From Methanolobus sp. (GTDB lineage Archaea; Halobacteriota; Methanosarcinia; Methanosarcinales; Methanosarcinaceae): a stretch of 64,000 bases of DNA. The position numbers were made by a program, and so were the translations under genes. The stretch lies in NCBI RefSeq assembly GCF_016278365.1, contig NZ_JADQBZ010000003.1:186001-250000 (forward strand). Direction: 5' to 3'. Shown one piece after another: positions 12,204 to 32,758 of this stretch (position 1 is the first letter of the stretch; the number at the start of each line of letters is the position of its first letter). A model generated the notes under the pieces. It made no database searches. It saw only the letters and a program-made list of their open reading frames with translations, and was not told the DNA's origin.

Positions 12204-12818
12204 TTACTTGTCTGACTTGTACCTGAACTCAAAACCAAGATGGCTCAATGCAAACAATGCTATCATTATTACAAAAAAGATAGACAAGACAAATGCATAG
12301 GATGCCAGCTCGTAATAAAGAAAATAGGTCCTGGCGACTTCCGAATCCAGATATGAGAATATACTGACCGGCCGGTAGAATGGATAAAAATAGTCTATTT
12401 CATATCTTGCGAGATCATCCAGCAATAGGTGCGAAATGAATGCAGATCCTGCAAATAATCCCATGTATGCTGCCTTGCTAAAATTCCTGTACGCCACATA
12501 TCCAACAAATATTCCAAACAGGATTGCAGAAGAACTGAACAGCAGGGAATGTGTCGAAACGGGGCCAATGGTACAATGTTGCATAGAACCGCCTGTTAAG
12601 ATACCGTATGCAGCCATGATATCTGGCAACAGCGCACCGCTGCCTCCTACAAACAGCAGCAATAGGATATGCATGTAATTCTTACGCGAAAGTTCTTTGC
12701 GGGAAAAAGCTCCAAGGACTGCATAAATCATAACCGCACTGATGCAAAGTACAAAGAACATAGTATGTGCAATCGGGTATGGCATGCTAATAGATAAGTG
12801 CTTGAAGCTATAAACCAT
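12204..12818 (-). CDS. DUF457/YdjM-type membrane-bound metal-dependent hydrolase
   Basis: A 204-residue polytopic membrane protein. The family motifs are present: Leu-Pro-Asp (ALLPDIMAAYG), an isolated His in the next helix (STHSLLFSS), His-Leu-Leu-Leu-Asp-Asp (HLLLDDLARYE) and the FYPFYRPV segment. The family is predicted to be metal-dependent hydrolases of the YdjM type with unknown substrate. A TATA-like element (12841-12853, minus) lies about 28 bases before the ATG at 12818, implying a leaderless transcript from this first ATG. The promoter and first 90 codons are duplicated at the start of the next gene upstream. Confidence 0.8.
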   Translation of the reverse strand: MVYSFKHLSISMPYPIAHTMFFVLCISAVMIYAVLGAFSRKELSRKNYMHILLLLFVGGSGALLPDIMAAYGILTGGSMQHCTIGPVSTHSLLFSSSAILFGIFVGYVAYRNFSKAAYMGLFAGSAFISHLLLDDLARYEIDYFYPFYRPVSIFSYLDSEVARTYFLYYELASYAFVLSIFFVIMIALFALSHLGFEFRYKSDK

Positions 12819-12881
12819 TTTTTATATTATCCATTGGGGAAATATATATTAATATGAAAGTATTGAGAATGTATTATCCAC

Positions 12882-14444
12882 TCACCTGGCCAGATGCCAC
12901 CGCCATAAAGAGATCTTGTAGACTATATAGGTCAAGGGATCAGCGAATAACGGGTTTATATTAACGTCAGTATCATGTGATCCAACATTATTGTAGTTCC
13001 CATTTTCATTGTTCCAGACAATGTTGCTTTCCAGGATGAAATTATAATTTTCGCCAAAACGGTTATTGATTCCATAACCATCATTGCTTTGGATAGGAGA
13101 ATTGACAGTATTTATAATGATATTATTCCTTACAAATGTTGTATAGGCAGCATCTTGGGTATTGGGAAATCTCTGGGCATATGCTATTCCATCTCCCATA
13201 CTGGCATCAATTATATTATTCTCAATAATAGTATTGTTCCATCCATCTAACCAGATACCTCCACCATAGGGATGCCCGGTTCTATAATTTGTACCTGACC
13301 CATAGATAATGTTGTTATGGATATGTACGTCTCTTGCACTTGTGACTGGCAGATTGTTAGCACCTCTGGCTGTGGCTAATACAATACCCATTTCGCGAGT
13401 GTCATATATTGCATTATACGCAATTGTAATATTATATGCATCAGCAGCAGAGTCCTGTTTTAATAAGTATATCCCAGAAAGTCCATAAAGTGCAGTGCTA
13501 TCTGTCCATATAGTGTTGTTTGTGACCATCATATTTGTAGAATCATCAAGCCTGATCCCACAATCATGCGCAACAAGGGGGAGTGTGTTGCCATCAACAA
13601 CATCATAATTTCCATGCTTTATAAAAATGTCATCGTGACCGGTGTCATAGATCAAGTTATTTAAAACCTTGTGATGACTTATCCCATTGTTTAATCTAAT
13701 GCCATCTCCGGGTATTTCTTTGATTACCATGTCTCTGACCGTAATATACTCTGAATAATAAAACTGGATCGCGGGGAAGGAATCAATAGCTTTCATTTCG
13801 GATATTGTATTTTGGTTATGTTTATTGCCATCTAATGTAAACCCGCTAATTGTGATGTTTGAACCCTTATTGAAATTTCCAGTAATCACTGTTGTTCCTG
13901 TAATCATTGATTTGAACACATCAGAACGTGTAACACTCCAATCCTCAATCAATTCCACAACTGCATCCGGATCACCTGTCAGTGTCATATCATCCGGAAT
14001 TTCAATACTATCGTCTATAGTGTAAGTTCCTGATTTCAGGTATACTGTGTCGAAATTATTGTTTTTTGCATATTGCAATGCTTCATTGATCTCAACCTGG
14101 TCAGCTGTCCCGTCACAGTTGAAGTTACCACTGCCATCTGTGGCCACAGTTATACTTGGCACAGACGAAGATATAGAATGCGCTGAAGCGGAGACAATAA
14201 CAGTTTGTTCCATAGAAGTATCTGTAAGGGTGTTGTGCACCGCCATATGATCTGACAACAGTGCACCGGTACCTCCTGCAAACAGCAGCAGCAGAATATG
14301 TAAATAATTCTTCTGTGAAAATCCTGTGCGAAGGAAGGCTATAAGGACTGCATAAATTACAGCCGTACTAATGCAAAGTACAAAGAACATATGTTCAATC
14401 GAGTATGGCATGTTAATAGATAAGAATTTGAAGATATAAACCAT
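12882..14444 (-). CDS. Chimeric protein: DUF457 N-terminus fused to beta-helix domain
   Basis: A 520-residue fusion. Residues 1-90 are a diverged copy of the N-terminus of the neighbouring DUF457 protein: MVYIFKFLSINMPYSIEH against MVYSFKHLSISMPYPIAH, with the membrane helix MFFVLCISTAVIYAVLIAF and the helix LHILLLLFAGGTGALL. Leu-Pro-Asp has become Leu-Ser-Asp, so hydrolase function is lost. From about residue 92 (SSSVPSITVATDGSGNFNCD) it is a right-handed parallel beta-helix almost identical to the next two proteins. The join is near 14,160-14,180. It ends early after LFADPLTYIVYKI, short of the domains seen in its paralogs. The upstream region is also copied from the DUF457 gene. Confidence 0.8.
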   Translation of the reverse strand: MVYIFKFLSINMPYSIEHMFFVLCISTAVIYAVLIAFLRTGFSQKNYLHILLLLFAGGTGALLSDHMAVHNTLTDTSMEQTVIVSASAHSISSSVPSITVATDGSGNFNCDGTADQVEINEALQYAKNNNFDTVYLKSGTYTIDDSIEIPDDMTLTGDPDAVVELIEDWSVTRSDVFKSMITGTTVITGNFNKGSNITISGFTLDGNKHNQNTISEMKAIDSFPAIQFYYSEYITVRDMVIKEIPGDGIRLNNGISHHKVLNNLIYDTGHDDIFIKHGNYDVVDGNTLPLVAHDCGIRLDDSTNMMVTNNTIWTDSTALYGLSGIYLLKQDSAADAYNITIAYNAIYDTREMGIVLATARGANNLPVTSARDVHIHNNIIYGSGTNYRTGHPYGGGIWLDGWNNTIIENNIIDASMGDGIAYAQRFPNTQDAAYTTFVRNNIIINTVNSPIQSNDGYGINNRFGENYNFILESNIVWNNENGNYNNVGSHDTDVNINPLFADPLTYIVYKISLWRWHLAR

Positions 14445-14516
14445 TTATTATATTATCTTCGGGGAGTATATATATTAACAAAAAGACAATAAAAAAAGTG
14501 GCGCACTATATGCGCC

Positions 14517-17084
14517 TTAGTTTACAATTTCGCCGAAGTGGTTTACCACAATAGAAACATCCTGGAGGTCCACAATCCCGTCCTGGTTGACGTCCCATCG
14601 TGGAAGAGATGTTGTGGATACCGGACCACTATTCTGACATATCAGATCGATGTCCTGAATATCTACAACCCCGTCCTCGTTTACATCCCATATCGGGTGA
14701 ACGTCGGTTACCGAAACGGCGTGGGAACTGGTAACAGTGTTCACACTGTCGCTCACAGTGACCTCAATGACATGTGACCCTGCGGATGCATAGTCAAGGT
14801 ACCATTCATAGCTTGTGGAAGTGCTTACCTCTGTACCATCTATTGTAATAGAGTAGCTGAGTTCGTCACCTTCAGCGTCGACAGCTTCCACGTTGATATT
14901 GACAGTGCTTCCCTCTTCGAATACTGCAGCATCTACAGGCTCGAAGAGAGTGATTATTGGTGCACGGCTGGCAGGTTCTGTGTTGTCAGACACTGTGCTG
15001 TCAATGTTCAGTTGTGGCCTCTGGTCCTGGCCATCCCAGTCAGAGCTGTAGAAGGCTATGTAATTATTGTTCTCATCCCGTGCTTTCAGGAAAAAGCCGG
15101 TATTTTCGTATTCTCCACTTACATAGTCCTGAACAAGTTCTGTGATATCAAACTCATAATGTCTGTTATCAGGCATATCACCGGCTTTGAAGGTTATTGA
15201 TGCATAAGGTTCATCGCCCTGAGCTACACCGTTCTTGTCGAACCAGTCTCCACCCGGATTGTCCCATGGAGTATTTGCGTCTTTGTTATTCCAGCTTACA
15301 TACGCCGGGTTCCAGTCGGCCGGCCTGTATATCTCTACTATCGTATCACTGCCTCTTGCTGTGTTTGAAGGATAGTACCAGTCCAGGGAAAGTGTTGCAT
15401 TGGTAATCGTATCAGTTGCGTTATATTCGCTCAGGTCGAACCACATAACATCCCTGTAACTGCCTACACCACCAAGATTTCCGATGTCAACAAAACTGCT
15501 TTCTCCAAGATTAGCATTTGGAGAAGCTTCTCGTAGTCTGTTGTCGTATACCAATCGATCCTCGGGAACTATAATTGGCTCATCCGAAGGGCTCCGGGAT
15601 GCTTCAGCGGTATTGCCATATCGTCCGATATTGATCCTGTTACCGTTTGGTGCAGGTTCCTGACTGTAATCGGACTTCGGACTTCCCGCATCTATTGCTG
15701 GACTAGTTACTGTGTCAAATACCCAGCTATTGCCAGTCCACCGGCCTGCAGCACTTTTCAGGCTGTAATCCTGGTTTGAGGGATCTGCGAAGAGTGGGTC
15801 TACATTGATATCAGTACCATGTGAACCAACATTCCCATAGTTCCCTTTGACATTGTTCCAGACAAGATTGTTTTCCAGGACGAACTTATAGTTACTGCCA
15901 AGGCGGTTGTTAATACCATAGCCATCATTGGTCAGGACAGGAGAATCAACAGTGTTTGTGACAATGTTATTCCTCACAATTGTTGTATAGGTAGCACTTT
16001 GGGTATTGGCGAACCTCTGCCCATATGCTATTCCATCTCCCATACTGCCGTCAACCACATTATTTTCGATGATGACATTGCTCCATCCGTCAAGCCATAT
16101 TCCTCCGCCATAGGGATATCCGGTCCTGTAATTGGTACCTGCACCATGGATAGTGTTGTGATGTATATGTACGTCTCTTGCACTTGTGGCTGGCAGATTG
16201 TTAGCACCTGCGCCTATTGCTAATACAATACCCATTTCGCGAGTGTCATATATTGTATTATATGCAATTGTTATATTGTACATATCACGAGTTGGAAGGT
16301 TATGCTTAAGCAGGTATATGCCGGAGCATCCGTAAAGCGCATTTTTATCTGTCCACATGGTATTGTTTGTAACCATCGTGTTTGTAGCATCATCAAGCCT
16401 GATCCCACAATCGTGCGCAACACGGGTAAGTGTGTTACCATCGATGACATCATAATTCCCATATTTTATGAAAATATCATCATGACCGGTATCATGGATC
16501 GTGTTGTTCAGGATCTGATGGTGGCTTTTTCCACCGTTGAGTCTGATACCGTCTCCAGCTATATTCCTGATCATCATATCTTTGATGGTGATATATTCCG
16601 AATTATAGAACTGGATCGCCGGGAAGGAATCTACTTCCTTCATTGCTGTTATTACATCTTGATTGTACTTGTTACCGTCTAATGTGAATCCACTAATTGT
16701 AATTTCTGAACTGGCTATAGTTGCTCCTGTGATCATTGGTGTGAACATATCAGAACGTGTAACGTCCCAGTTCGCAATGAGTTTCACAGTTGCATCCGAA
16801 TCGCCTGTCAGTGTCATACCATCCGGAATCTTAATACTATCGTCTATAGTGTAAGTTCCTGATTTCAGGTATACTGCACCGAAATTATTGTTCTTTGCAT
16901 ATACTAATGCCTTATTAATTTCAATTTGGTCAGCTGTCCCGTCACAGTTGAAGTTACCACTGCCATCTGTGGCCACAGTTATACTTGGCACAGATGAAGA
17001 AGAACCTTGGGCAGCAGGAATGCTAATACAGATTAGCAGACATAACCCTATCATTACGTTTTTTTTTAGTACGTTTTTATTCAT
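14517..17084 (-). CDS. Secreted beta-helix / DNRLRE / Ig-like / dockerin protein
   Basis: An 855-residue modular surface protein. A signal peptide (VMIGLCLLICISIPAAQG) is followed by a right-handed beta-helix (about 30-470) with many NNTI/NNIV turns, then a disaggregatase-related DNRLRE domain (about 508-700: VYDNRLREASPNANLGESSF through YIAFYSSDWDGQDQRPQLNI), an Ig/cadherin-like domain (VDAAVFEEGSTVNINVEA), and two dockerin-type calcium repeats from residue 797 (WDVNEDGVVDIQD and WDVNQDGIVDLQD). It may bind or cut surface polysaccharide such as methanochondroitin. AAGGTGG precedes the ATG. No cohesin partner is seen in this window. Confidence 0.85.
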   Translation of the reverse strand: MNKNVLKKNVMIGLCLLICISIPAAQGSSSSVPSITVATDGSGNFNCDGTADQIEINKALVYAKNNNFGAVYLKSGTYTIDDSIKIPDGMTLTGDSDATVKLIANWDVTRSDMFTPMITGATIASSEITISGFTLDGNKYNQDVITAMKEVDSFPAIQFYNSEYITIKDMMIRNIAGDGIRLNGGKSHHQILNNTIHDTGHDDIFIKYGNYDVIDGNTLTRVAHDCGIRLDDATNTMVTNNTMWTDKNALYGCSGIYLLKHNLPTRDMYNITIAYNTIYDTREMGIVLAIGAGANNLPATSARDVHIHHNTIHGAGTNYRTGYPYGGGIWLDGWSNVIIENNVVDGSMGDGIAYGQRFANTQSATYTTIVRNNIVTNTVDSPVLTNDGYGINNRLGSNYKFVLENNLVWNNVKGNYGNVGSHGTDINVDPLFADPSNQDYSLKSAAGRWTGNSWVFDTVTSPAIDAGSPKSDYSQEPAPNGNRINIGRYGNTAEASRSPSDEPIIVPEDRLVYDNRLREASPNANLGESSFVDIGNLGGVGSYRDVMWFDLSEYNATDTITNATLSLDWYYPSNTARGSDTIVEIYRPADWNPAYVSWNNKDANTPWDNPGGDWFDKNGVAQGDEPYASITFKAGDMPDNRHYEFDITELVQDYVSGEYENTGFFLKARDENNNYIAFYSSDWDGQDQRPQLNIDSTVSDNTEPASRAPIITLFEPVDAAVFEEGSTVNINVEAVDAEGDELSYSITIDGTEVSTSTSYEWYLDYASAGSHVIEVTVSDSVNTVTSSHAVSVTDVHPIWDVNEDGVVDIQDIDLICQNSGPVSTTSLPRWDVNQDGIVDLQDVSIVVNHFGEIVN

Positions 17085-17521
17085 AAAACCACCTTATAGA
17101 TGACTATTTAGTACTTTTTGTAGTCATCAGGATTTGCTTATAGAATTCATTATATATATAATGTAGTATATACTGTCTAATATTTATGGCACATATGGGA
17201 ATATTATGTTCATAATATCGACTTTTTGAGACAAGAACATATTAATATATTCTCAGTAAGTCAGTTTCTTATAAAAATATGATATGCAATCATGTATTGA
17301 TACGTTATAATTAAGTTCAAGCAGTAACTATGCATGTTTCTTGAACCGGTGATATTTGAATCAGGAAGGCTTTGTCCAGCAGAGAAATGGATGAACGGGC
17401 GTTTCCCTTCTTTCGTGAAAATGGAGAGATCAGGGCGGAATACATTAGGATATATAAAAGACGATTCAACTGAAATAATATGCACAACCCGGCATTCATG
17501 CCAGGGTTGTTTCTGATCAGG
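17085..17521. other. AT-rich intergenic region
   Basis: About 440 bases upstream of the 855-residue gene. The part nearest the gene (17,100-17,260) is very AT-rich and should carry its promoter. Two short overlapping frames on opposite strands at 17,261-17,530 show no recognisable features; I leave them uncalled. Confidence 0.4.
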
Positions 17522-17579
17522 ATTGTTCAAGCCAGAGCTGTAGAAGGCTATGTACTTGTTGCTCTCATTTAGGGTGACA
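17522..17579 (-). pseudogene. Remnant of a DNRLRE domain
   Basis: The stretch around 17,529-17,568 (CAGAGCTGTAGAAGGCTATG and what follows) nearly repeats the DNA at 15,042-15,076 that encodes YIAFYSSDWDG of the DNRLRE domain in the neighbouring gene. It leads straight into DNA matching the Ig-like region. The frame is interrupted by the stop of the 602-residue gene. It looks like the scar left when most of a DNRLRE module was deleted from this copy. Confidence 0.55.
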
Positions 17580-19388
17580 TCAAGCTACCGAAACGTTATG
17601 GGAACTGGTGACAGTGTTCACACCGTCGCTCACAGTAACCTCAATGACATGTGACCCTGCGGATGCATAGTCAAGGTACCATTCGTAGCTTGTGGAAGTG
17701 CTTACCTCTGTGCCATCTATTGTAATAGAGTAGCTGAGTTCGTCGCCTTCAGCATCGACCGCTCCCACGCTGATATTGACAGTGCTTCCCTCTTCTAATA
17801 CTGCAGCTTCTACAGGCTCGAAGATAGTGATTATTGGAGCTCGGTTATCGTCCACTAAAGATGGTTTATCCGAAGCACTTTTGGATGCTTCAGTAGCGTT
17901 ACTGTATTGGTCAACGTTAATGCTGTCACCGTTTGGTTCAGATCCATTAATGGAATCTGATGCCGGATTTCCGTCTTCAGTGAGTGGATTTGTCATCGAA
18001 CTCATTAAGCGGAAATCATGGTTTGAGGGATCTACGAAGAGTGGGTCTTCGTTAATGTCAGTATCAGATGATTGAACATTATTGTAGTTCCCATTTATAT
18101 TGTTCCAGATAACGTTGTTTTCCAGGACGAACTTATAGTTACTGCCAAGGCGGTTGTTGATGCCAAAACCGTCATTGTTCAGGACAGGTGAATCAACAGT
18201 GTTTGTGATGATGTTATTCCTCACAATTGTTGTATAGGTAGCACTTTGAGTATTGGCGAATCTCTGCCCATATGCTATTCCATCTCCCATACTTCCATCT
18301 ATCACATTATTTTCGATGATGACATTGCTCCATCCGTCAAGCCATATTCCTCCACCATAGGGATATCCGGTCCTGTAATTTGTACCTGCACCATGAATGG
18401 TATTGTTGTATATATGTACGTCTCTTGCATATGTAGTTGGCAGATTATTAGCATCTTTGGCTATGGCCAGTACAATGCCCATCTCGCGTGTGTCGTATAT
18501 TGTATTATATGCGATTGTGATGTTGTATGACTCGAGCTGATTGGCATGCTTAAGCAGGTATATGCCGGAGCATCCGTAAAGCGCATTTTTGTCTGTCTGG
18601 ATGGAGTTGTTTGTAACCATCGTGTTTGCGCAATTATCAAGCCTTATACCACAGTCAGCAGCGACGCGGGATAGTGTATTACCATCGATGGTAACATGAT
18701 TCTCGGATTTTAGGAAAATGTCATCATGACCGGTATCATGGATCGTATTATTCAGGATCTTGTGGTGTCCTTTTCCACCATGGATCTTGACACCGTCTCC
18801 TGCTATATCCCGAATTACCATGTCCTTTACCGTAATGCGCTCAGAACTGAAGAATTGGATTGCGGGGAAGGAATCGACTTCTTTCATGGCTATGATGGCG
18901 TTCTGATCATATCTGTTGCCGTTTATCGTGAATCCGCTTATCGTAATGTCTGAACTGGCTGTAGTTGCTCCTGTGATCATCGGTGTCAACATATCAGAAC
19001 GGGTAACACGCCATCCTTTGACCAGTTCCACAGTCGCATCCGAATCGCCTGTCAGTGTCATACCATCCGGGACTCTAATACTATCGTCTATAGTATAAGT
19101 TCCTGATTTAATGTATACTGTGTCGAAATTATTGTTTTTTGCATATTGTAATGCTTCATTAATTTCAACCTGGTCAGCTATTCCATCGCAATTGTAGTCG
19201 CCACTGCCATCTATGGCTACATAAATGACCGGTACTGATGAAATGGTGTTGTCTTTGGAAACGCTTACTGTGTTGTTATTCTCTTCACCGGCGGTGGTGT
19301 CGGCCGCTGAAGCAATTGCTGTTCCCAGACTTAAGCCAAGGAGCAGACATATCATTAAAAAGCTGGGGATTTTTCTTCTATAAACCAT
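17580..19388 (-). CDS. Secreted beta-helix protein with Ig-like domain
   Basis: A 602-residue paralog of the 855-residue protein. It has its own signal peptide (FLMICLLLGLSLGTAIASAA), then the same right-handed beta-helix (about 50-470), a short Ser/Asn-rich linker and the Ig-like domain (EPVEAAVLEEGSTVNISVGA to VTSSHNVSVA), where it stops. The DNRLRE module is missing between helix and Ig domain, and the dockerin is missing at the end. GAGAGG lies upstream of the ATG. An extracellular role on surface polysaccharide is likely by family; no catalytic residues can be assigned. Confidence 0.85.
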   Translation of the reverse strand: MVYRRKIPSFLMICLLLGLSLGTAIASAADTTAGEENNNTVSVSKDNTISSVPVIYVAIDGSGDYNCDGIADQVEINEALQYAKNNNFDTVYIKSGTYTIDDSIRVPDGMTLTGDSDATVELVKGWRVTRSDMLTPMITGATTASSDITISGFTINGNRYDQNAIIAMKEVDSFPAIQFFSSERITVKDMVIRDIAGDGVKIHGGKGHHKILNNTIHDTGHDDIFLKSENHVTIDGNTLSRVAADCGIRLDNCANTMVTNNSIQTDKNALYGCSGIYLLKHANQLESYNITIAYNTIYDTREMGIVLAIAKDANNLPTTYARDVHIYNNTIHGAGTNYRTGYPYGGGIWLDGWSNVIIENNVIDGSMGDGIAYGQRFANTQSATYTTIVRNNIITNTVDSPVLNNDGFGINNRLGSNYKFVLENNVIWNNINGNYNNVQSSDTDINEDPLFVDPSNHDFRLMSSMTNPLTEDGNPASDSINGSEPNGDSINVDQYSNATEASKSASDKPSLVDDNRAPIITIFEPVEAAVLEEGSTVNISVGAVDAEGDELSYSITIDGTEVSTSTSYEWYLDYASAGSHVIEVTVSDGVNTVTSSHNVSVA

Positions 19389-19752: not shown

Positions 19753-21240
19753 TTAAAAAAGATGGGCTTTCAAATTCAGTTTCTTATCTGTTGTGATAAT
19801 ATATCCATAGTAGATAGCAATAAGGAGAACAGAAACAGCTACAATAACAAACTGGTTTACTTCAAGTAATTTCAAAATAATAAGGATAGTTCCTGCAGGG
19901 ATAAAATATAGCAGATTAGAAGTAACAATCTGTGCCACTCTGGACATTTTCACCCCTGCGAAATACATCATCTTTAGGCACAAATATCCATATACCATAA
20001 TACCTGATGCTGCAAAAAGAATCAATGCTAATCTTGCACTGCCCAAATAGCCTCCTATTGCAAGAGATAATATCCGGGTTGCAAAGTTAAAAGCATTGAA
20101 TTTGAGACCAAATTGTTGTTTCTCCAATACCACATAGATCGAACTTAGTGGAGAGGAAATGAACCATACAAATGCCCAAATGCTCAGGATCTGCGCATAT
20201 ACTCCTGCTTCGGTCCAAGTTTGTCCAAAGACTACACTGAAAATATCGCTCCCAACAATTGTAACAGTAAGTATGGGAAACATCCCGACTACCACAAGAG
20301 CTCTGAATACATTTTCAACAAGTAAGTTCAAGTTGTTTTCGTAATTGGCAATCGAAGCTCTTTGGAAGAACACTTGTGAAATAGATTTACCGACAAAGTT
20401 CATAGGCATTTGAAGCAGACGAAATCCTAACGAATAAAATCCTACAATAGCAGGAGAGAAAAAAAATGCAAGTAAAAATGCTGGAAGTTGCCAGGAAATA
20501 GCGTTCAGAAGAGCAGACCAGCTATCAATGAGGGGAAATTTCCGATGTCTTTTAAGACCAATAAGCATTTTCCTTGGATGAATGTATGTTCTAAACAGTT
20601 TTTTATCGTCTTTCCATATCTGTCCTCCAAGGACGCTTGTAGAGATAAACGTTCCAACAAAACTCCCAGCGATCAAACCAATCTCTGTTGTATATCCGCT
20701 GACTCCAGCACCTATCTGGGTTCCAGTTGACGAGAGTGAACTGGAAACCTGAGCAAAAGATAGTCTCTTAAAATTTTTTGTTCTGGAGTTCCAGTAATTC
20801 AGAGCAAGGAAAACCCCACTAATAAGGATAAATGGCGGTATTAACCACACATAATTTTCAAGCTGAGGAGAGTTGAGAGCTACAACCAGGGGAGCCTTGA
20901 ATATGTATATTAATGGAATCGTTACTATTGATGTCATTATAACGATGGCAATACTCAAAGCAAGAAGATTTATAGCATCATCATCTGACTCCGGCAGCAT
21001 TATTGAAAGTTCATATCGAAGACAGGCAATAACCCCTATAATTCCGGTAACGGAAATGAATAGGGCCCACACTCCAAAATCTTCTGGCCCGTAGAGCCTT
21101 GTAAGTATAGGAGCCGCTAATAGGCTGACTATTTGAGCAAAAGTTGTTCCACCAACAAGTGTTAAAACATCAGATGCGAAGCTTTTATGCTTTTTTTGAT
21201 TGGTAGAAGTATCGTTTGTTTTTTCCTCCTCATGATTCAT
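19753..21240 (-). CDS. Polysaccharide flippase (Wzx/PST family)
   Basis: A 495-residue integral membrane protein with about 12-14 hydrophobic helices. The opening after a charged N-tail (SDVLTLVGGTTFAQIVSLLA) and LTRLYGPEDFGVWALFIS are the classic start of Wzx-type oligosaccharide flippases of the MATE-like superfamily. It should move lipid-linked sugar units across the membrane. It is the last gene of the minus-strand glycan cluster and stands about 70 bases from the preceding glycosyltransferase. Confidence 0.88.
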   Translation of the reverse strand: MNHEEEKTNDTSTNQKKHKSFASDVLTLVGGTTFAQIVSLLAAPILTRLYGPEDFGVWALFISVTGIIGVIACLRYELSIMLPESDDDAINLLALSIAIVIMTSIVTIPLIYIFKAPLVVALNSPQLENYVWLIPPFILISGVFLALNYWNSRTKNFKRLSFAQVSSSLSSTGTQIGAGVSGYTTEIGLIAGSFVGTFISTSVLGGQIWKDDKKLFRTYIHPRKMLIGLKRHRKFPLIDSWSALLNAISWQLPAFLLAFFFSPAIVGFYSLGFRLLQMPMNFVGKSISQVFFQRASIANYENNLNLLVENVFRALVVVGMFPILTVTIVGSDIFSVVFGQTWTEAGVYAQILSIWAFVWFISSPLSSIYVVLEKQQFGLKFNAFNFATRILSLAIGGYLGSARLALILFAASGIMVYGYLCLKMMYFAGVKMSRVAQIVTSNLLYFIPAGTILIILKLLEVNQFVIVAVSVLLIAIYYGYIITTDKKLNLKAHLF

Positions 21241-21309
21241 TTATTTGTACCTTTATTCAAAATTCGCTGTTAAACCTATAGTTATATAAATAGTATTTAT
21301 AAAAATCAG

Positions 21310-22431
21310 TCATAGCTTGCTGTATAATTCTAATAGTTTTTTTTCTTCATTTTCCCAATTTAAATTATTCTTTGCAATTTCAGTATTTTGTTTCATTTCT
21401 TCATACTCCTCCCTGTTGCTGAAAAATTTCACGATGCATTTAGCAAAATCCTCGGGATTTTCACTATCCGCTAGCAAACCAATCTTGTATTTTAATACAT
21501 TCTCTTTTAGAAATGGGTAATCTGGAACCAGTACTGGAATATTGGAATGGATATATTCAAAGAATTTGTTTGGTGCCATGTAATAATGACTTAAATTATA
21601 TTTCTCTGGATAAATTACACCCAGATGTGCAATTTTTGTGTATGAAAGCAATTCTTCGTGAGGAATCCTTCCTGTGAAATGGATTTTTTGACCTAGTGAT
21701 AATTGTTTAGACAGATCAATCAATTCATCAAGGAGAGGTCCATCACCTATTATAAGTAAATTATAGTCATCGCTCAGATAAGCAACAGATTTGATCAAAT
21801 TTCTTAAGCCCAGACCTTCCCTTATTATTCCCTGGAAAACAATAACATTTTTTCCATCATACTTTGACTCCAGTTCGGTATTTGTATTACATTCGTTAGA
21901 ATTACGCAGGGAGGGACAATTCATGATTACAGACGGAACATTTTTAAGATCATAACGTTGCTGTAATTCTTGAGCTATAAAATCATTGACAGTAATTATT
22001 AGATCAACTTTCTTTATAAGGAAACGTTCCAGGTAGTAATAGATATTTTTATAGTTATTTTTACTATTGAAGTCTCTTATAAACAGTTCATGGGAGTCAT
22101 ATACTACTTTTGATCTATTCCATTTTGAAGCAATATAGCATTCTAACAAAGTACTCATATCGTGAGCATGATAAACATCTGCATTTTCTTTAATTGAATG
22201 AGATATAAACTTTGGAGAATGCTCTAGTTTTCCCATGAACGAGTTCTCCTTCATTTTTTTATTAATTCTTTTTATAGAAAAACCATCTTTCTGTTGGAAT
22301 TTCGGTGTTTCATCTTTAGATATTGCCCAGATCACTACCTCATGTCCACCTTTGGAGAGAGAAGTAGCTTCTTTTAATACTCTTGCATCAGTTGTACAAG
22401 GATTTGTAACCAGCATACAGATTTTCACCAT
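21310..22431 (-). CDS. Glycosyltransferase family 4-like
   Basis: A GT-B fold glycosyltransferase of 373 residues. The N-terminal domain starts MVKICMLVTNPCTTDARVLK, and the donor-binding half contains VFQGIIREGLGLRNLIKSV, LLIIGDGPLLDELI and YIHSNIPVLVPD. I moved the start to the ATG at 22431, 13 codons inside the longest frame, because GGGAG stands four bases before it. Base composition is strongly AT-rich, like the whole cluster. The sugar donor cannot be told. Confidence 0.85.
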   Translation of the reverse strand: MVKICMLVTNPCTTDARVLKEATSLSKGGHEVVIWAISKDETPKFQQKDGFSIKRINKKMKENSFMGKLEHSPKFISHSIKENADVYHAHDMSTLLECYIASKWNRSKVVYDSHELFIRDFNSKNNYKNIYYYLERFLIKKVDLIITVNDFIAQELQQRYDLKNVPSVIMNCPSLRNSNECNTNTELESKYDGKNVIVFQGIIREGLGLRNLIKSVAYLSDDYNLLIIGDGPLLDELIDLSKQLSLGQKIHFTGRIPHEELLSYTKIAHLGVIYPEKYNLSHYYMAPNKFFEYIHSNIPVLVPDYPFLKENVLKYKIGLLADSENPEDFAKCIVKFFSNREEYEEMKQNTEIAKNNLNWENEEKKLLELYSKL

Positions 22432-22484
22432 ATTACTCCCTTCAAATAAAATGTATAATAAACGTTCCAAATTGGAAAAGACTT

Positions 22485-24416
22485 TTAATAATATACCTCT
22501 ACATGAGAATTTGAGTAAAGTTTATTTCTTTTTTCAAACTCTGAGCTCATCCGATTCCATTCCGGACTATCTGATCTCATATCCACCATTCCTCCGTCCC
22601 CTACTCTTAAACCTGACTCAAGGAAAGCTTTGTTACGCCAGACTATGTATCCGTTGGTTCTCTGAATATTGCGTACGCTAAGAGAAGTCCGAAAACTTTC
22701 ATTATAATAGGGAAGCCCTAAAGTTTCAGTCTGACTAAAATTTTGGAATGGTATATATCTTCTAGTAAAATAATCTGAATATAATTGGGAACCATATGGG
22801 ATGTAATCGAAGACATAGTTGAAAGAAGCCACTTCCGCGGAATCAAAATATCTTCTTTCAGAATCGATGCTATAACTCGGTTCCGGAGATGTGGATATTA
22901 TTGAAGAGACCACAAGTATTGATAGGAGTAAAAGTGAAATGGTGTAAAAGTAGCTTTTATTTATTTTTTTAAATTGAAAAAGCTCCATTAAGTAAATTAA
23001 ACCTAAGGCCATCATAAAAGCTATAAAGGGACTCACTAACAAGATGAATCTATCAAATCTAAAGAATGTCATTGTATTCCAAAAAAGTTGCAAAGGAGTA
23101 GGAATATACAGTGGTAGTATCAACAACGAAATCAGAGCAAATACTTGCAGGTAACTTTTTTTATGTACATACCATGTCCCTCCGATTCCTACCAATGCCA
23201 AAAAAGTAACTGCAGAATAACCGATATTGTTGAAAATAAAATACCATTGATTACCTGCCTGGATAGTTGGTTTCATTGACAAAGATTCATAATTTGTAGA
23301 ATCAAAGTACAGTGCCGTTAATGATTGAGTAAAGGCATAGCTTACATAAAGCCAATAAGCAATGAAGCTAACTATTAGAAGTAACACGTATGTTTGACTT
23401 ATATAGCTACTTTTGTCTTGCATTATCTTACCTAGTACTATTTCAACAAATAGAATTAGGAAAAAGATGACAATTATTTGTGGTATTGACACTTGATGAA
23501 CTAATATGATGAACATCCCAAATAAAAGCCCTAATGTTTTTAAAAGAGGTGATTTTTTACTATTTCTATTGTATATTAAATATAAGATTATAACAAAACC
23601 AATAAATGCCATAGTTCGTGTCACCATATACATCCCGGAATAAACAGTAACACTAAATGTTGAAAAAAGCAAAGACGATAATAGTGATACTCTCTTATCA
23701 TTAGAGATATTAAGCATTACTAAATATACAAAAAATATAGAAGTTGCAAAGACAGGCGCTGTTATTAAAAAATAAGAGATCTGGATATTGGAACCAAGTA
23801 AATATGAAACCTCAGATATAAAAATATGAAATAATGGAAAATCCGCATAAGCGCTACTCAAATCTATAGGAATAGTGTGACCTGACAAAAAAGTTACCTC
23901 TGAAAGGAACATATGTGGCAATATATCAGTTCCACCAAAGTATAATGAATATTTTAAAGTGACACTATACGTTAAATTTAATAGTAGAAAGAATATTTCA
24001 AATAAAATTATATGGGGACTATTTGATCGAGTGAATATTTGAATGAAAACAATGAAATATAATATTAATATAATAGTTAAATACTGTAAAGGTCGAGTAG
24101 TTGACATGAGCAGGATGATGAGACTCGCCAAGTAAAGAATACAAAATAATTTTATACACTTCTTTTCGCTTAAGTTGACCAAACTAGAATTATGCTCTTT
24201 TCTTTCATTTGAGTTTTTATAGATATAAGATAAAGTAACTGCAGCAAATATTCCTGGAACTGCTATTATTGAACCTCTTATAAGTAAGTCAAATCTATTG
24301 AGAATAACTGCTCCAAAAACACCACTTAATATAGCAAAAACAATTAGAAACGGCAAAATTAAAGCTAAATTAATGGTAATATTATCTTTGAGTGGTTTTT
24401 TAACTTTAATGATCAT
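22485..24416 (-). CDS. Polytopic membrane protein, GT-C-like glycosyltransferase candidate
   Basis: A 643-residue protein with about 14 membrane helices and a soluble C-terminal domain of roughly 120 residues. The first large loop carries GGTDILPHMFLSEVTFLSG and AYADFPLFHIFISE, an acidic-plus-His arrangement like the catalytic loop of GT-C enzymes that use lipid-linked sugars. I cannot assign a family. It could also be a polysaccharide polymerase. GAGGTAGAC precedes the ATG. It lies between two glycosyltransferases, which supports a role in glycan assembly. Confidence 0.65.
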   Translation of the reverse strand: MIIKVKKPLKDNITINLALILPFLIVFAILSGVFGAVILNRFDLLIRGSIIAVPGIFAAVTLSYIYKNSNERKEHNSSLVNLSEKKCIKLFCILYLASLIILLMSTTRPLQYLTIILILYFIVFIQIFTRSNSPHIILFEIFFLLLNLTYSVTLKYSLYFGGTDILPHMFLSEVTFLSGHTIPIDLSSAYADFPLFHIFISEVSYLLGSNIQISYFLITAPVFATSIFFVYLVMLNISNDKRVSLLSSLLFSTFSVTVYSGMYMVTRTMAFIGFVIILYLIYNRNSKKSPLLKTLGLLFGMFIILVHQVSIPQIIVIFFLILFVEIVLGKIMQDKSSYISQTYVLLLIVSFIAYWLYVSYAFTQSLTALYFDSTNYESLSMKPTIQAGNQWYFIFNNIGYSAVTFLALVGIGGTWYVHKKSYLQVFALISLLILPLYIPTPLQLFWNTMTFFRFDRFILLVSPFIAFMMALGLIYLMELFQFKKINKSYFYTISLLLLSILVVSSIISTSPEPSYSIDSERRYFDSAEVASFNYVFDYIPYGSQLYSDYFTRRYIPFQNFSQTETLGLPYYNESFRTSLSVRNIQRTNGYIVWRNKAFLESGLRVGDGGMVDMRSDSPEWNRMSSEFEKRNKLYSNSHVEVYY

Positions 24417-24546
24417 TGTCTACCTCATTAAGCTAAATATTCTTTTATCACTGCTCATAATCAAACCACGATGGCCCTTAAATCAGAGAACACCATACTA
24501 TAGATTTTCAAGGAAATTTATAAAAATAACATTTTAATTCCTAATG

Positions 24547-25653
24547 TTATTTGCATGGAGGAGATGTATAAATATATTGAACCTGCGCAGCTATATTCTC
24601 CCACTGGTATTGTTGGACATGATTCAAAATTTTCTTCTCGTCCCACTTTTTCTCCAAAGCAATGCCTATCTTCTCTGCCAGATCCTGCGAGTTACCCGGT
24701 TCAACAAGTAGCCCGTAATCATCAGAAATTATAATTTCTTCACTACCACCATTGCGAGTGGCAACAACAGGTTTCCCACATCCCATTGCTTCGATCTGGA
24801 CAATACCAAAACTTTCTCCATCTAAAAAGCTTGGAAATATCAATAATTCTGCAGAATTCAGATATAATGGTAAATCATCCCATTTAGCTCTTCCAGTGAG
24901 AATTACAGAACCTTCAAGAGAATGCTCTTCTATCAAACTCTCTAATTCGTTGTAGCTAGGACCATTTCCTACAATATAGCACAGCAGATTGTCCAGCTGG
25001 AACTTTTGTTTGAGTATGCTTACAGCCTCGATCAGATTCTTATGTCCTTTATGTGGCAACAAATTACCAATACTTACAATGACAATCGATTCAGAAGGAA
25101 TTTGAAGCTTCTTTTTTGACTCCTCTTTCAAAAGGGGCCTGAACAAATTGTCATCATAGCCATTAGGTATGACCTTTATTTTCGATGCACAGTTATCGGC
25201 AACATAGTCCAGCAATAATCGTTTGTTTCTTTCTGAAACAGTAACAAAAGTATCACAATTTTGAATTACAAAACTGATAATTCCATGATATCTTTTATAG
25301 AAATCGATCCATGAAAAATGGAATGTGACAACAGAATGTTTTTTTAACATTTTAGCTGCTGCGATTCCGCTGATTGAAGATATGAAACTGAAAATACCAC
25401 CCGAGGTCTGAATGTGAATTATATCGTATTCACTTCTTTTCCTATACGATTCAATAACCAATCCTAATGTTCTGTAATATGTTTTTCTGAAAGCACCTAC
25501 TTCAGAAGGCTCCAATTCTTTTTCCGAATCTCCCAGAAAACTGTATGGAATTACAGTTGAGCCTGTTCTTAATAGTGAATTCGTCAAGTTAATGGTATGT
25601 GCTGAAACACCGCCTGCTTTTGCAATCGGTCCACACATCAGTACCCTTGTCAT
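24547..25653 (-). CDS. Glycosyltransferase family 4
   Basis: A GT-B glycosyltransferase of 368 residues. MTRVLMCGPIAKAGGVSAHT is the N-terminal glycine loop, and IVSIGNLLPHKGHKNLIEAV, PSFLDGESFGIVQIEAMGCG and GLLVEPGNSQDLAEKI are the donor-site motifs, with the E-x7-E pair in the second. I place the start at 25653, where ATG overlaps the upstream TGA as ATGA, rather than at the longer in-frame start. Confidence 0.9.
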   Translation of the reverse strand: MTRVLMCGPIAKAGGVSAHTINLTNSLLRTGSTVIPYSFLGDSEKELEPSEVGAFRKTYYRTLGLVIESYRKRSEYDIIHIQTSGGIFSFISSISGIAAAKMLKKHSVVTFHFSWIDFYKRYHGIISFVIQNCDTFVTVSERNKRLLLDYVADNCASKIKVIPNGYDDNLFRPLLKEESKKKLQIPSESIVIVSIGNLLPHKGHKNLIEAVSILKQKFQLDNLLCYIVGNGPSYNELESLIEEHSLEGSVILTGRAKWDDLPLYLNSAELLIFPSFLDGESFGIVQIEAMGCGKPVVATRNGGSEEIIISDDYGLLVEPGNSQDLAEKIGIALEKKWDEKKILNHVQQYQWENIAAQVQYIYTSPPCK

Positions 25654-26873
25654 TTTACCATCTCTGCTCTTTCCAGATAAGTGGATAAAGCTAACATCAT
25701 CCAACCCTGACACCACCTCATATGAGGAATTTTGTTTGTGAAAAACCGATGTTTGTAATAGTAGAAATAACCGGAATCATCCTGCATGTTTGAAATAGTC
25801 CATCTGGCAATTTTTCCTGCAAAATCTAAGTATTCGGGTTCGTAAAGACTAAATTTGCTGAAAGTAATTATGCCCTGGGCCTGACTATGTGCATCATTCG
25901 GATAAAATCGAGGATAACGGAAATGACATCTGCCATCGTCAAGGAATTGTTTGTTTCGGTAAAAGTCTATGCCCTTTTGGATCGATTCGAGTACAGTTGC
26001 TTTTTCATCCGTAGCAGCAAACGGTAAATACTCGATCAATCCATCCAATATGAACCCTTGGTGAAAATCTGTTTGTATCCTCTCTTTTCCATTATGATAT
26101 TTACTGTATACCCAGGAACCATCTGATCGTTGTGTTTTTATTAAGAGATCACAAAGATTGCGGGCTATCTCTTTCATTTCTTTATCGTTCTCAAACAAAT
26201 ACATCAATTTAGATATAGCTTCTAATCCTAAAGCAGAAGCATTTATCACCATTTTGTCGTTATCCAATGGACTGTACATTAAATAGAAAAGGCCATCTTC
26301 TGTTTCTTTTAAAAGATAATTTCGTATGAACTGATAAGCACTTTCGCTCATTTCTTTCAAATCATCTCTTTGAACCACGAAATAACTGTCAACCAGTGAT
26401 TTAATGACATTGGATGTTGTAATTACATCGGGTACTCTGGGGGACAATATGTTTTTGTCAGCACTTGTGTAATTAAAATAGTGAGACCAGCAATCATAAC
26501 CATATTCAGATTTGACTGACTCTTTTTTAAAAATCTCTATAGCGTTTAATATATCGGCCTTATATTTATCATCCTTTGTAATATTATACATTTTAGAGAA
26601 TGATTGATTAAATAGGCCCATACCTTTCATATCGACTCCTTTATTTATCTTAAGGAGAGATCTGAAATTTAGTGGAGAATATTTGTTAAATTGGGTTGCT
26701 ATTATTTGAAGTGGTTTTTGGTCCATACAGATTTTCTGGACTAATTCACTATTCAATGCATCATAAATGTCCCAACCACAATAACTCTCATTTTTTGTCC
26801 AATCGTAAAGGGATTTTTCTGATTCCCATACAAAGTTATTACTATCTCCAATACCCACGCTCTCAAACCCCAA
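25650..26873 (-). CDS. Alpha/alpha-toroid-like protein, possible polysaccharide-modifying enzyme
   Basis: A 407-residue soluble protein rich in paired helices with Trp, Tyr and His in the loops (YGYDCWSHYFNYTS, QTDFHQGFILDGLIEYLPF, CHFRYPRFYPNDAHSQAQG, HMRWCQGWMMLALSTYLE). This pattern suggests an (alpha/alpha)6 toroid like that of glucuronyl C5-epimerases or unsaturated-sugar hydrolases. I cannot name the family. The start is uncertain: the longest frame begins with TTG, a GTG lies five codons later, and the first ATG is near codon 50. Its stop overlaps the next glycosyltransferase start, so the two are coupled. Confidence 0.6.
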   Translation of the reverse strand: MGFESVGIGDSNNFVWESEKSLYDWTKNESYCGWDIYDALNSELVQKICMDQKPLQIIATQFNKYSPLNFRSLLKINKGVDMKGMGLFNQSFSKMYNITKDDKYKADILNAIEIFKKESVKSEYGYDCWSHYFNYTSADKNILSPRVPDVITTSNVIKSLVDSYFVVQRDDLKEMSESAYQFIRNYLLKETEDGLFYLMYSPLDNDKMVINASALGLEAISKLMYLFENDKEMKEIARNLCDLLIKTQRSDGSWVYSKYHNGKERIQTDFHQGFILDGLIEYLPFAATDEKATVLESIQKGIDFYRNKQFLDDGRCHFRYPRFYPNDAHSQAQGIITFSKFSLYEPEYLDFAGKIARWTISNMQDDSGYFYYYKHRFFTNKIPHMRWCQGWMMLALSTYLERAEMVK

Positions 26874-26992
26874 CGTAAATAGTAGATTTAATCAATAAAT
26901 ATCTTGTCATCAACATTTCAATTAGTCTTAATTTTGTTCCATTGCATTGAAATGTCTCTGACCTTTAATGTGACCAAAGTAAGTAATATTTA

Positions 26993-28198
26993 CTATACGC
27001 TTTCAAAACATTCGTATAGTATCTTCTCCATTCTATCCCATGAATATTCTTCTTCGTATCTTTGTCTGGAGCTAATGATCATCTTTCTGGTTTCTTCCGG
27101 GTTTTTAAAACACCAAAGTATTCTTTCTGCCAGCTCGTCTGCATTTCCGGGCTCATAAAATAGTATCTCTTTCTCAGAAAAAGTCAAAGCCATTCCTTTT
27201 AACCTTGATGCGATTATTGGTTTTTCATGAATGGTATATTCAAATAATTTATTTGGGACCCCTCTTTCGTTGACCTTTGTCTTTAAGAAGGGAATTACGC
27301 AAACATCTGCAATAGAAATGTATTTTGAAAGTGTATTTAAATCTACCCACCCGGTAAATTTGACGAAGTCATTAAGGTCTTTCTCAACAACAATATCTTT
27401 TAAGTATTGTAGGGAGGGACCATCGCCAACAACTAAAAAGCAAATAGGTATAGTGTCTTTTAACAGCTCTACGGCATCTATAACAGTTTGAATACCTCTT
27501 CTTTTCCAGATGGTTCCTTCAAATAAGACAATAAATCTATTCTCAAGCCCATAATCTTCTTTCACTGCAGTTTCTATAGTGTAGTGTTTTAAGTTTGGTA
27601 TATTCATTACAACAAATATCTTATCAGGATCAACGTTATTTCGAGCTGAAATGATTTCTTTATCATATGAATTCGTAGCTATGATAGCATCGGAAAAGTG
27701 AACTGCTACTTTTTCAATAATCTTTGATACCTGCACTAAAATCCCACTTCCCTTGAACTGTAAGTTACTTTCCACAGCCTCAGGAAGCATATCATGCAAA
27801 TCCAGAATTATCCGGGAACCATAGATCAGTTTGAATGGAATAGCTATTAAAATTAAATAATCCGGAGGATTATGTACATGAAAAAAAGAATATTTTTGTG
27901 AGTTATTTAAGAGAGAAATTCTATAAAATGCTTTTATACCAAATAATATATGATTTGTGAAAACTGTTAGAAAATTATCTGTTTGCAATTCCTCTGTTAC
28001 CCTGATTATGTTTATATCGTTTATTCTCTCTGTGCCCTGATGATCTTTATATTTTAAGGATACAAAGTCCACATCATATCCATTATTATGCAGCGATCGG
28101 GATATTTTCATCCTGTTAATATCCCTCGGTAAAGATCTATATGCAACCATACATACATTGTCGTTTTTTTTTCTGTGTGAATTATCACTGTGCGTCAT
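26993..28198 (-). CDS. Glycosyltransferase family 4, copy A
   Basis: A 401-residue GT-B glycosyltransferase. Motifs include ILDLHDMLPEAVESNLQ in the acceptor half, VLFEGTIWKRRGIQTVIDAV, FLVVGDGPSLQYLKDI, and the C-terminal KLFEYTIHEKPIIASRLKG. It is a close paralog of the gene at 30027-31253, and the DNA of the C-terminal thirds is nearly identical (155 bases perfectly so). Two unrelated genes lie between the copies. Confidence 0.88.
   Translation of the reverse strand: MTHSDNSHRKKNDNVCMVAYRSLPRDINRMKISRSLHNNGYDVDFVSLKYKDHQGTERINDINIIRVTEELQTDNFLTVFTNHILFGIKAFYRISLLNNSQKYSFFHVHNPPDYLILIAIPFKLIYGSRIILDLHDMLPEAVESNLQFKGSGILVQVSKIIEKVAVHFSDAIIATNSYDKEIISARNNVDPDKIFVVMNIPNLKHYTIETAVKEDYGLENRFIVLFEGTIWKRRGIQTVIDAVELLKDTIPICFLVVGDGPSLQYLKDIVVEKDLNDFVKFTGWVDLNTLSKYISIADVCVIPFLKTKVNERGVPNKLFEYTIHEKPIIASRLKGMALTFSEKEILFYEPGNADELAERILWCFKNPEETRKMIISSRQRYEEEYSWDRMEKILYECFESV
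27138..27292. repeat. 155-bp perfect direct repeat, copy A
   Basis: These 155 bases are identical to 30193-30347, at an offset of 3,055 bases in the same orientation. They encode the ADELAERILW-proximal to VPFLKTKVNERGVPN part of the two paralogous glycosyltransferases. Similarity continues on both sides with scattered differences. A perfect block this long points to recent duplication or gene conversion. Confidence 0.93.
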
Positions 28199-28232
28199 TT
28201 ATCCTCTAAAACAGGTGGAATATTCAGAATTT

Positions 28233-29258
28233 TTAATATAAATGCTTGAAAAGTATTTCGCTAACTGGTTTATACATTTTAATCGGCATTTCTCTAAAAA
28301 CCTGTCTTCCCAATTTATACTTTAAGTTATCACGATTCATAATTGATGAAGTAGGGATATTTGGATAGTAACTATAGCATATTTCAGTCTCAACAGCTCC
28401 CCATCTTTCTTTGAAAGCAATCAATCCTTTATTGTCATATGATGAACGCCCAAAATTGTAGTATTTATAGTTATTTACACATGCATCTTCGATACTTTTC
28501 CAAACAATTAAATTATTAGGGCGCAGATCAAGATAACCGGGATTGCAAGCGGCATATCCGAAAGTAACAGTATCTTTAAAATACTGAAAAACCCCTCCTG
28601 CAATAATCTCATTGTTATATTTTACAACATAAAGAATAACATATTCATCCATCAACTCAAACAAATTTTCAAAAAATTTCCATGGATGACATGGGACGCC
28701 AATCTTTTTTTTAGTAATGCAATTTAACTCGCAAAATTCTTTCAGATCTTCCAGGCTTTTAGTAGAATAAACAGAGAGGCCATTCTTGATTGGTTTTTTA
28801 GTTGAACTTCTAGTACCCCTACTTATTTTTTGCCAGACTTCATTAGGATCTGAGGATAATTCAACGGTATGTGCACAAAATGAATTTTGAAACTGGAATT
28901 TATCATGATTTACTTTATCTCTGATCTCAAACCGATCAGCATTTAATTTATGATATAGATTTATCCCCTCGTCTAACAAATCCTTTTTTGCAGACTCTGA
29001 ACCAATACAACTGCTATTGTAGGAGAATGGGACTGTGCAAAGTTCATTGCCTCTTAATTTGCTTCTAACATAGAATGAAGCTAACAACCCTATAATATTC
29101 TCACTTTCATCTTTTGCAAATAGATATTTGGATTTATATCCAAAGGTTTTTTCCAAAAATGTTTTCCATTCGGGAGTGTGGTAAATAGTCGCATCATCAC
29201 ATGTGTATAGAAATTTTTCCCATGCTTCTTCTGTAACATTCTCTATTATTTCTATCAT
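28233..29258 (-). CDS. FemAB/GNAT-like aminoacyl or acyl transferase
   Basis: A 341-residue protein with the FemAB-type double GNAT fold. Visible are TIYHTPEWKTFLEKTFGYKS at the N-terminus, SRGTRSSTKKPIKNGLSVY in the middle, IAGGVFQYFKDTVTFGYAA and the final YKYYNFGRSSYDNKGLIAFKE, which is the family's 'GLxxFKxxW' tail. Bacterial relatives transfer amino acids from tRNA to peptidoglycan precursors or modify exported polysaccharide. Methanogens of this group have no murein, so a surface glycan acceptor is plausible. Its ATG overlaps the deacetylase TGA as ATGA. Confidence 0.75.
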   Translation of the reverse strand: MIEIIENVTEEAWEKFLYTCDDATIYHTPEWKTFLEKTFGYKSKYLFAKDESENIIGLLASFYVRSKLRGNELCTVPFSYNSSCIGSESAKKDLLDEGINLYHKLNADRFEIRDKVNHDKFQFQNSFCAHTVELSSDPNEVWQKISRGTRSSTKKPIKNGLSVYSTKSLEDLKEFCELNCITKKKIGVPCHPWKFFENLFELMDEYVILYVVKYNNEIIAGGVFQYFKDTVTFGYAACNPGYLDLRPNNLIVWKSIEDACVNNYKYYNFGRSSYDNKGLIAFKERWGAVETEICYSYYPNIPTSSIMNRDNLKYKLGRQVFREMPIKMYKPVSEILFKHLY

Positions 29259-30061
29259 GATCTTGTCATCCTCAAAAACTCCTTCCCTAAATTGAAAACC
29301 ATGTCTTTAGAATAAAATAACAGCCATTCAAAACCATTTGAGGACCATCTTTCCGGATGAGTTAAAATGTAAAAATTGTTAGTTTTGCCGCCTTCAATTA
29401 ATTGAATAAGATCATTAGTCGAATTAATACGAATATTTTCTTTTTTATTAGGAATAAAATCTCTTATACAATGATCAAAATTCCAGTTTCGTCCAGTATC
29501 ACATAAATAATTTACAGAATCGCCAATAGACAAATAAGCTTCTCCGAGAATTCCAAAATCCCTGTAATCATATTTTTTCCATAGATCACGATTATCATAT
29601 TTTGACAACGGTTGCCCATGCATACATACAGTTTTTACATCACATAGATCTTTAAACCTTTTCAAATTAGACTCAAAAAGCTTTATTGCTTCTTCATAAT
29701 TACCCTTACACTCATTTAGAACCTCATAGTGGTATCCGATCTCATGCCCCATTTTTTTGACTTTGTTTATAATTTCCGGACAAAATAGTTTATCGTTAAT
29801 TGCCCTAAAATAATAAGTTGCTTTTATGTTATAATCCTGCTCAATTCTTGCAGTTTCCAGTGCTTTTGAGGGGTTTCTGTCAATATCATGACGCATCATC
29901 ATATACTTTTCAGGTAATATGTCCGCTGTCATATATTCAGCCAGAGTAATTGGGAGGTAGTTATTTTCCTCTAATGAAAAGCAGAGCTGCTCGAACTTAT
30001 CCATTGTAAAATCAAAATCATGGTCTTTAATCACAAGAACACTTCCCTTCAAATGAGTCAT
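29255..30061 (-). CDS. Polysaccharide deacetylase-like protein
   Basis: A 268-residue protein of the NodB-type fold. MMMRHDIDRNPSKALETARI carries the His-Asp-(Ile)-Asp metal/catalytic motif, GHEIGYHYEVL gives the second motif with its His, and FYILTHPERWSSNG gives the third. In this subfamily TFDDG is replaced by RHDID, as seen in many glycan-cluster members. It should remove N-acetyl groups or otherwise hydrolyse a sugar-linked acyl group. The ATG at 30061 overlaps the previous gene by 35 bases; an internal ATG at 30004 is an alternative. Confidence 0.75.
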   Translation of the reverse strand: MTHLKGSVLVIKDHDFDFTMDKFEQLCFSLEENNYLPITLAEYMTADILPEKYMMMRHDIDRNPSKALETARIEQDYNIKATYYFRAINDKLFCPEIINKVKKMGHEIGYHYEVLNECKGNYEEAIKLFESNLKRFKDLCDVKTVCMHGQPLSKYDNRDLWKKYDYRDFGILGEAYLSIGDSVNYLCDTGRNWNFDHCIRDFIPNKKENIRINSTNDLIQLIEGGKTNNFYILTHPERWSSNGFEWLLFYSKDMVFNLGKEFLRMTRS

Positions 30062-31253: not shown

Positions 31254-31479
31254 TTTACAACCTTAATCCCAATTCAATGACTTCGTCTTTATTTTTATGA
31301 TTTTATGATAAAAATATGAATTTCACTGATCATGAACAAATATTCTTTTCAATACCTTCCATCTGCAACAATATATTTGCAGAGTATGTACCATCCGTAC
31401 TATTATCTCTAAAACAATGTATATAGAATTATAGGAAACACTAAAAATAAAAAACACAGACCGTTTTATGGTTTTCCAA

Positions 31480-32724: not shown

Positions 32725-32758
32725 GGTAGCACCTATCGTCTTTATATTTGTAGATTTG

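Follow-up and report, generated by a model that had tools for sequence, protein, structure and literature searches.

A DUF457/beta-helix fusion gene in Methanolobus, probably formed by tandem duplication, with comparable joints in other Methanosarcinaceae

The birth of chimeric genes by tandem duplication is already known; exon shuffling and chimeric genes reportedly arose by this route in Drosophila yakuba, and in E. coli a new tandem-duplication joint is said to have placed citT under another promoter. That archaeal genes can originate by fusion is reportedly the theme of work on composite genes in haloarchaea, which, going by the title of the study, concerns components of bacterial origin. 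Bacterial tandem duplication is described as able to activate genes by promoter capture (PMC11111574). The gene presented here shares with these systems a new joint that gives a gene another promoter or makes a chimera, but differs in being archaeal and in-frame, in the swap of a signal peptide for a putative membrane anchor, and in an apparent repetition at the same gene boundary. Unlike the haloarchaeal composites with their bacterial components, both of its donors are local neighbours. An archaeal tandem-duplication chimera with a signal-peptide-to-anchor swap would be new, and the titles and abstract openings of the literature searched hold no description of this fusion or of DUF457 with a disaggregatase.

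An extracellular disaggregatase is described for Methanosarcina mazei; it cleaves methanochondroitin and breaks up aggregates (PMC12369344). The fusion gene lies in the window, the whole 64,000-nucleotide stretch of a Methanolobus genome (G000) that was analysed, and resembles the Methanosarcina disaggregatase and related beta-helix proteins (PF08480/PF06848) in its beta-helix fold, in belonging to the same archaeal family, and in matching PF08480 (Disaggr_assoc; 1.8e-37, 129.6 bits) well above the gathering cut-off of 22.6, in addition to PF13229 (Beta_helix). Both unfused genes upstream of the fusion also match PF08480, and NCBIfam assigns no family to the fusion protein. Where the M. mazei enzyme is extracellular, the fusion carries a DUF457 transmembrane (TM) segment in the place of a signal peptide. 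The likeness to YdjM/DUF457 (PF04307) is confined to the promoter and the first ~80 residues, which appear to derive from that family; the DUF457 part is cut before TM3, the protein does not match PF04307 at E 0.01, and the DUF457 motif LPD reads LSD.

Table 1. Features of the fusion locus and its surroundings (window positions; all on the reverse strand)
Feature	Position	Strand	Details
Captured DUF457 promoter region	14412..14478	(-)	83% identical to DUF457 copy; boxes TTAATATATAT (14478-14467) and TTTATAT (14440-14434)
Fusion gene	12882..14444	(-)	520 aa, or 509 aa if the start is codon 12 (ATG at 14411); open frame
DUF457/YdjM-derived N-terminal anchor, codons 12-91	14172..14411	(-)	Two predicted helices (residues 16-39, 44-70); rapidly evolving
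Disaggregatase-related right-handed beta-helix	12927..14171	(-)	Starts right after parent's signal-peptide region; constrained, omega 0.18
C-terminal tail ...WRWHLAR	12882..12926	(-)	In place of parent's GRWTGNSW and all domains downstream of it
Intact DUF457/YdjM gene, donor of promoter and anchor	12204..12818	(-)	193-204 aa; PF04307 2e-10, 40.9 bits, cut-off 29
Unfused neighbour, likely beta-helix parent	14517..17084	(-)	855 aa; signal peptide, Disaggr_assoc, Disaggr_repeat, Ig-like, dockerin
Second unfused paralog	17580..19388	(-)	602 aa; Disaggr_assoc and Ig-like
Adjacent surface-polysaccharide gene block	19753..33829	(-)	Flippase, glycosyltransferases, UDP-sugar dehydrogenase, UDP-GlcNAc 2-epimerase, FemAB

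That this gene joins a DUF457 gene to a beta-helix gene had been proposed in a first-pass annotation, and the repeat search, the Pfam matches and an ortholog in Methanolobus halotolerans bear it out. The frame (14444..12882) has no internal stop over its 520 codons; its ~91 N-terminal codons and the DNA upstream, including the TATA region, repeat the DUF457 gene (12818..12204), and from about codon 92 the remainder repeats the beta-helix of the two unfused neighbours (17084..14517 and 19388..17580). On the DUF457 side the repeated segments are 12547-12762 against 14176-14391 (73% identity) and, across the start and upstream DNA, 12764-12852 against 14390-14478 (83%); on the beta-helix side, 13891-14171 matches 16720-17000 (88%). 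Nucleotide alignment thus fixes the breakpoint, where these segments end and begin, at ~14172-14175. SSVPSITVATDGSG is common to the fusion and the unfused neighbour, and the joint lies right behind the neighbour's signal-peptide-like segment, so that in the alignment the DUF457 TM segment of the fusion takes the place of the neighbour's signal-peptide region. Separately, a dockerin type I domain (PF00404, 1.9e-07) is present in the likely parent (14517-17084), an archaeal surface protein.

The promoter region appears to have travelled with the joint, as the first-pass annotation had suggested. The TATA-to-ATG spacing is equal in the DUF457 and fusion copies, with the distal TATA-like box TTAATATATAT 34 nt ahead of the upstream ATG and a second box, TTTATA, 29 nt ahead of the ATG at codon 12. 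A box 29 nt upstream of the ATG is also kept in DUF457 genes of group g7, and a DUF457-type box at this distance precedes the fusions of Methanolobus and of genomes G044, G050 and G051. Translation may begin at codon 12 (MPYS...), since this is where DUF457 genes of other genera start, in group g7 with a TATA box ~29 nt upstream; against this, codons 1-11 of the two Methanolobus DUF457 genes differ by three synonymous changes and one non-synonymous change, a pattern that looks coding. The likely parent has a Shine-Dalgarno-like aggtg 10 nt ahead of its ATG, a type of motif absent from all five fusions checked. This contrast in leaders is limited to the window's parent gene, because the unfused beta-helix genes checked mostly lack the motif too (present in one of two in the window and none of five in group g7). 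With a DUF457-type box and no Shine-Dalgarno-like motif, the fusion would be expected to follow DUF457 rather than its parent in expression, the start having presumably switched from a leadered, Shine-Dalgarno-type form to a leaderless-type DUF457 promoter.

The order of the locus (parent, fusion, second DUF457 promoter, intact DUF457 gene) is what a single tandem duplication would leave, and such an event is therefore proposed. One end would have fallen in the beta-helix gene, just behind its signal peptide, and the other in the DUF457 gene downstream of it, past the second TM helix, so that the inner joint of the duplication formed a new gene running from the DUF457 promoter through the DUF457 N-terminal TM hairpin to the mature disaggregatase-type beta-helix. 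A later deletion has to be assumed in addition, because the fusion stops at the position of the parent's GRWTGNSW and thus lacks the parent's C-terminal repeat, Ig-like and dockerin domains. A 3' frameshift at the parent's GRW motif was considered as the source of the new stop and dismissed, the alignment showing a 3-nt gap and then divergence only. By eye, DUF457 and the beta-helix parent have GTTCTTCT in common at the joint, a microhomology too short to carry weight.

Among 27 Methanolobus genomes, the fusion is present in two, that of the window and that of M. halotolerans SY-01 (G003), where an ortholog of 522 aa (L033 8001-9569; 84% identical) stands in the same gene order and likewise reads LSD; the unusual C-terminus WRWHL[A/T]R is common to both. 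Quartet sites favour orthology over conversion in the anchor plus upstream DNA (28:9:1, orthologous ahead of conversion-type) and in the beta-helix (126:14:6), which suggests that the fusion has been kept since before the two species split. The 5' tract of the window fusion's beta-helix has eight conversion sites and no orthologous ones, pointing to later gene conversion with the neighbour at the beta-helix start. The unfused beta-helix pair itself (window 14517-19388; L033 1989-7929) shows concerted evolution (51:41:17, with 51 conversion-type and 41 orthologous sites).

Between the two species, omega is 0.176 for the beta-helix (dS 0.32) and 0.104 for the first 90 codons of the true DUF457 gene, against 0.625 for the anchor, the last being an estimate for which no significant difference from 1 is claimed. 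The anchor's dN (0.235) is likewise far above that of the same part of DUF457 (0.050), so that DUF457-specific residues would no longer matter in the anchor. TM1 has stayed more hydrophobic than neutral evolution gives in simulation (fractions 0.016 and 0.096), the hydropathy of TM2 does not depart from the simulation (0.39 and 0.33), and a stop codon arose in 77% of simulated copies. In the first-pass annotation the change from Leu-Pro-Asp to Leu-Ser-Asp had been taken to mean that the hydrolase part serves only as an anchor; the change itself stands and on its own is a weak argument for that role. The reduction is better seen in the truncation of DUF457 after ~80 of 193 residues and in the loss of constraint, with anchoring the likely remaining function.

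A structural model of the fusion (pLDDT 66.8) has a helical hairpin at the predicted helices, a disordered linker and, at residues 107-480, the right-handed beta-helix fold of the PF08480 family; confidence is low in the anchor and linker (ten-residue means 25-66). The top structural matches are the mannuronan C-5 epimerases AlgE6 (Z 35.5, 328 aligned) and AlgE4 (Z 35.2, 325 aligned), with an rmsd of 2.6, followed by other beta-helix carbohydrate enzymes and some tailspikes and adhesins. A predicted AlgE4/AlgE6-like fold is not proof of activity. A sequence search for solved relatives returned none at E 0.001 and a profile search a single chance-level match. Under the positive-inside rule the charged loop of a membrane hairpin stays inside, and the beta-helix would therefore face outward, so that a secreted polysaccharide-active protein would have become membrane-tethered; the conversion of a secreted into an anchored protein proposed at first pass accordingly holds as the best reading. 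Given the adjacent flippase, glycosyltransferase and UDP-sugar genes (Pfam matches in seven of the ten proteins scanned from this block) and the activity of the M. mazei disaggregatase, the most likely role would be for a tethered protein to trim or release polysaccharide of the cell's own surface, at the membrane and beside the export cluster.

Beyond what the first-pass annotation had claimed, the beta-helix proves to be disaggregatase-related and the same kind of fusion is seen in sequences from other lineages. A profile of the DUF457 N-terminus was searched against 111 genomes of the family, in which ordinary frames have ~200 residues, and long frames with a beta-helix were found in nine: the two Methanolobus genomes, three of the 11 genomes of group g7 (G044, G050, G051) and all four of group g5 (G032-G035), the frames having been read in all but G032 and G035, which are profile hits only. 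A search of 185 genomes across the order gave no further fusion, and a long frame in one of these (G154) was, by eye, an unrelated membrane protein. The anchors differ in length by lineage (about 80, 57-66 and 26 residues), those of G044/G051 resembling Methanolobus in a charged loop that separates two hydrophobic stretches, and every joint lies on or close to the boundary of the parent's signal peptide. Among 45 beta-helix domains placed in a tree, the fusions form three clades (Methanolobus; G044 and G051; G050), each beside unfused neighbours of its own genome or genus. The anchor tree (40 rows of a short alignment, with many weak forks and the 26-residue G050 anchor left out for its length) places the Methanolobus anchors with the adjoining Methanolobus DUF457 (support 98/95) and those of G044/G051 with the DUF457 copy beside dag in G042 (90/68). 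G042 and G049 have a decayed DUF457 ~170-175 bp downstream of a dag gene, at the fusion position of the others.

Other DUF457 surroundings were also surveyed. A general synteny of dag and DUF457 was set aside, the dag profile matching at only two (L119, L127) of 37 loci around DUF457-type hits elsewhere (40 regions minus three g5 fusion flanks; a subset of such hits). Decayed DUF457 copies occur at L096 6508-7000, L097 14934-15300, L098 3230-3600, L146, L149 and L150, some directly downstream of disaggregatase-type genes. A DUF457 gene of G066 (L101 3057-3971) is extended at its C-terminus by a part that closes with a PEF-CTERM sorting signal (TIGR03024, 42.4 bits) and reads as another kind of DUF457 chimera. 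Adjoining another DUF457 gene of the window's genome is a 419-aa protein (L065 2780-4039), which we take to be of the TnpB/OrfB transposon type.

The mechanism appears most directly in G050 (L096), where both duplicated flanks are visible: the dag gene and 175 bp downstream recur in a second copy, the alignment having internal deletions and 2030 identical bases out of 2143, and between the two boundary copies lies the fusion, followed by a decayed DUF457. Its DUF457 piece of ~26 residues stands in place of the signal peptide. Parent and fusion are identical at 1355 of 1362 positions after the joint (99.5%), despite two clearly different DUF457 upstream copies, so that either the copy was homogenised or the event is recent. 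The anchor has a single TM segment with no charged flank and the fusion copy is truncated, and it may be decaying. In group g5 the anchor joins a different beta-helix family at the signal-peptide boundary of its neighbour. A three-part fusion is found here (L099 2909-4702, L103 4134-5924), consisting of a disaggregatase N-terminal piece, the DUF457 anchor and this other beta-helix; the dag-N-terminus-like piece is present in G033, G034 and G035 and is not detected by profile in G032. The g5 anchors form one clade, whereas the fused beta-helix halves cluster genome by genome in G032, G033 and G034, so that gene conversion can imitate independent origin. The count is therefore put at three origins that are fairly firm, with a fourth, in g5, probable.

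That same capacity of conversion could make the recurrence only apparent, if a single ancient, family-wide DUF457/beta-helix fusion had afterwards been converted piecewise by its neighbours. Besides the g5 halves, the window fusion's 8:0 tract, the 51:41:17 sites of its neighbours and the near-identity of G050 after its joint speak for conversion of this kind. We nevertheless consider one ancient fusion unlikely: the anchors are of unequal length, the donors that the two halves follow differ from lineage to lineage, forcing all five fusions of the tree into one clade is rejected (p-AU 3.4e-5), and G050 retains both copies of its own duplicated boundary. An assembly join or annotation artefact is more remote still, to the point of being negligible. 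The frameshift or assembly join at about 14,170 raised in the first-pass annotation is contradicted by the independent M. halotolerans assembly, in which this gene stands intact at the corresponding position, and no point was found in favour of it.

Two further readings concern the function of the anchor. The DUF457 piece might act as a cleaved export signal, leaving the protein secreted, which would suit the position of every joint at or near the signal-peptide boundary and the single, signal-peptide-like hydrophobic helix of G050; the paired hydrophobic stretches and charged loop of the Methanolobus and G044/G051 pieces are unlike a signal peptide, and we regard this as rather improbable. 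Alternatively, the joints could be neutral or decaying by-products of a recombining gene pair, with a functionless anchor. The truncated C-termini of the window and G050 copies, the decayed DUF457 that follows a dag gene in each of G042, G049 and G050, and the anchor omega of 0.63 would all fit, but an open frame with a beta-helix omega of 0.18 over a dS of 0.32 in Methanolobus, and fused frames retained in G044/G051 and in every g5 genome, make this quite unlikely. The account preferred here, comprising tandem-duplication origin, promoter capture, tethering, retention, recurrence and a role at the surface polysaccharide, is as a whole probable.

Because comparable joints appear to have arisen again in other Methanosarcinaceae, the beta-helix/DUF457 boundary would be a recurrent birthplace of anchored versions. 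The stronger proposition, that the dag/DUF457 boundary is a fusion factory that has produced at least three, probably four, in-frame and promoter-bearing chimeras by tandem duplication, several of them selected as cell-tethered polysaccharide enzymes, seems to us evenly poised. The Methanolobus locus offers an archaeal gene birth in which the parents, the joint, the captured promoter and the later fate can all be read, with the G050 version exposing the mechanism. If the recurrence holds, these fusions would serve as natural replicates for weighing mutation bias against selection in repeated chimeric genes, and membrane-tethered polysaccharide depolymerases would be predicted in methanogens.
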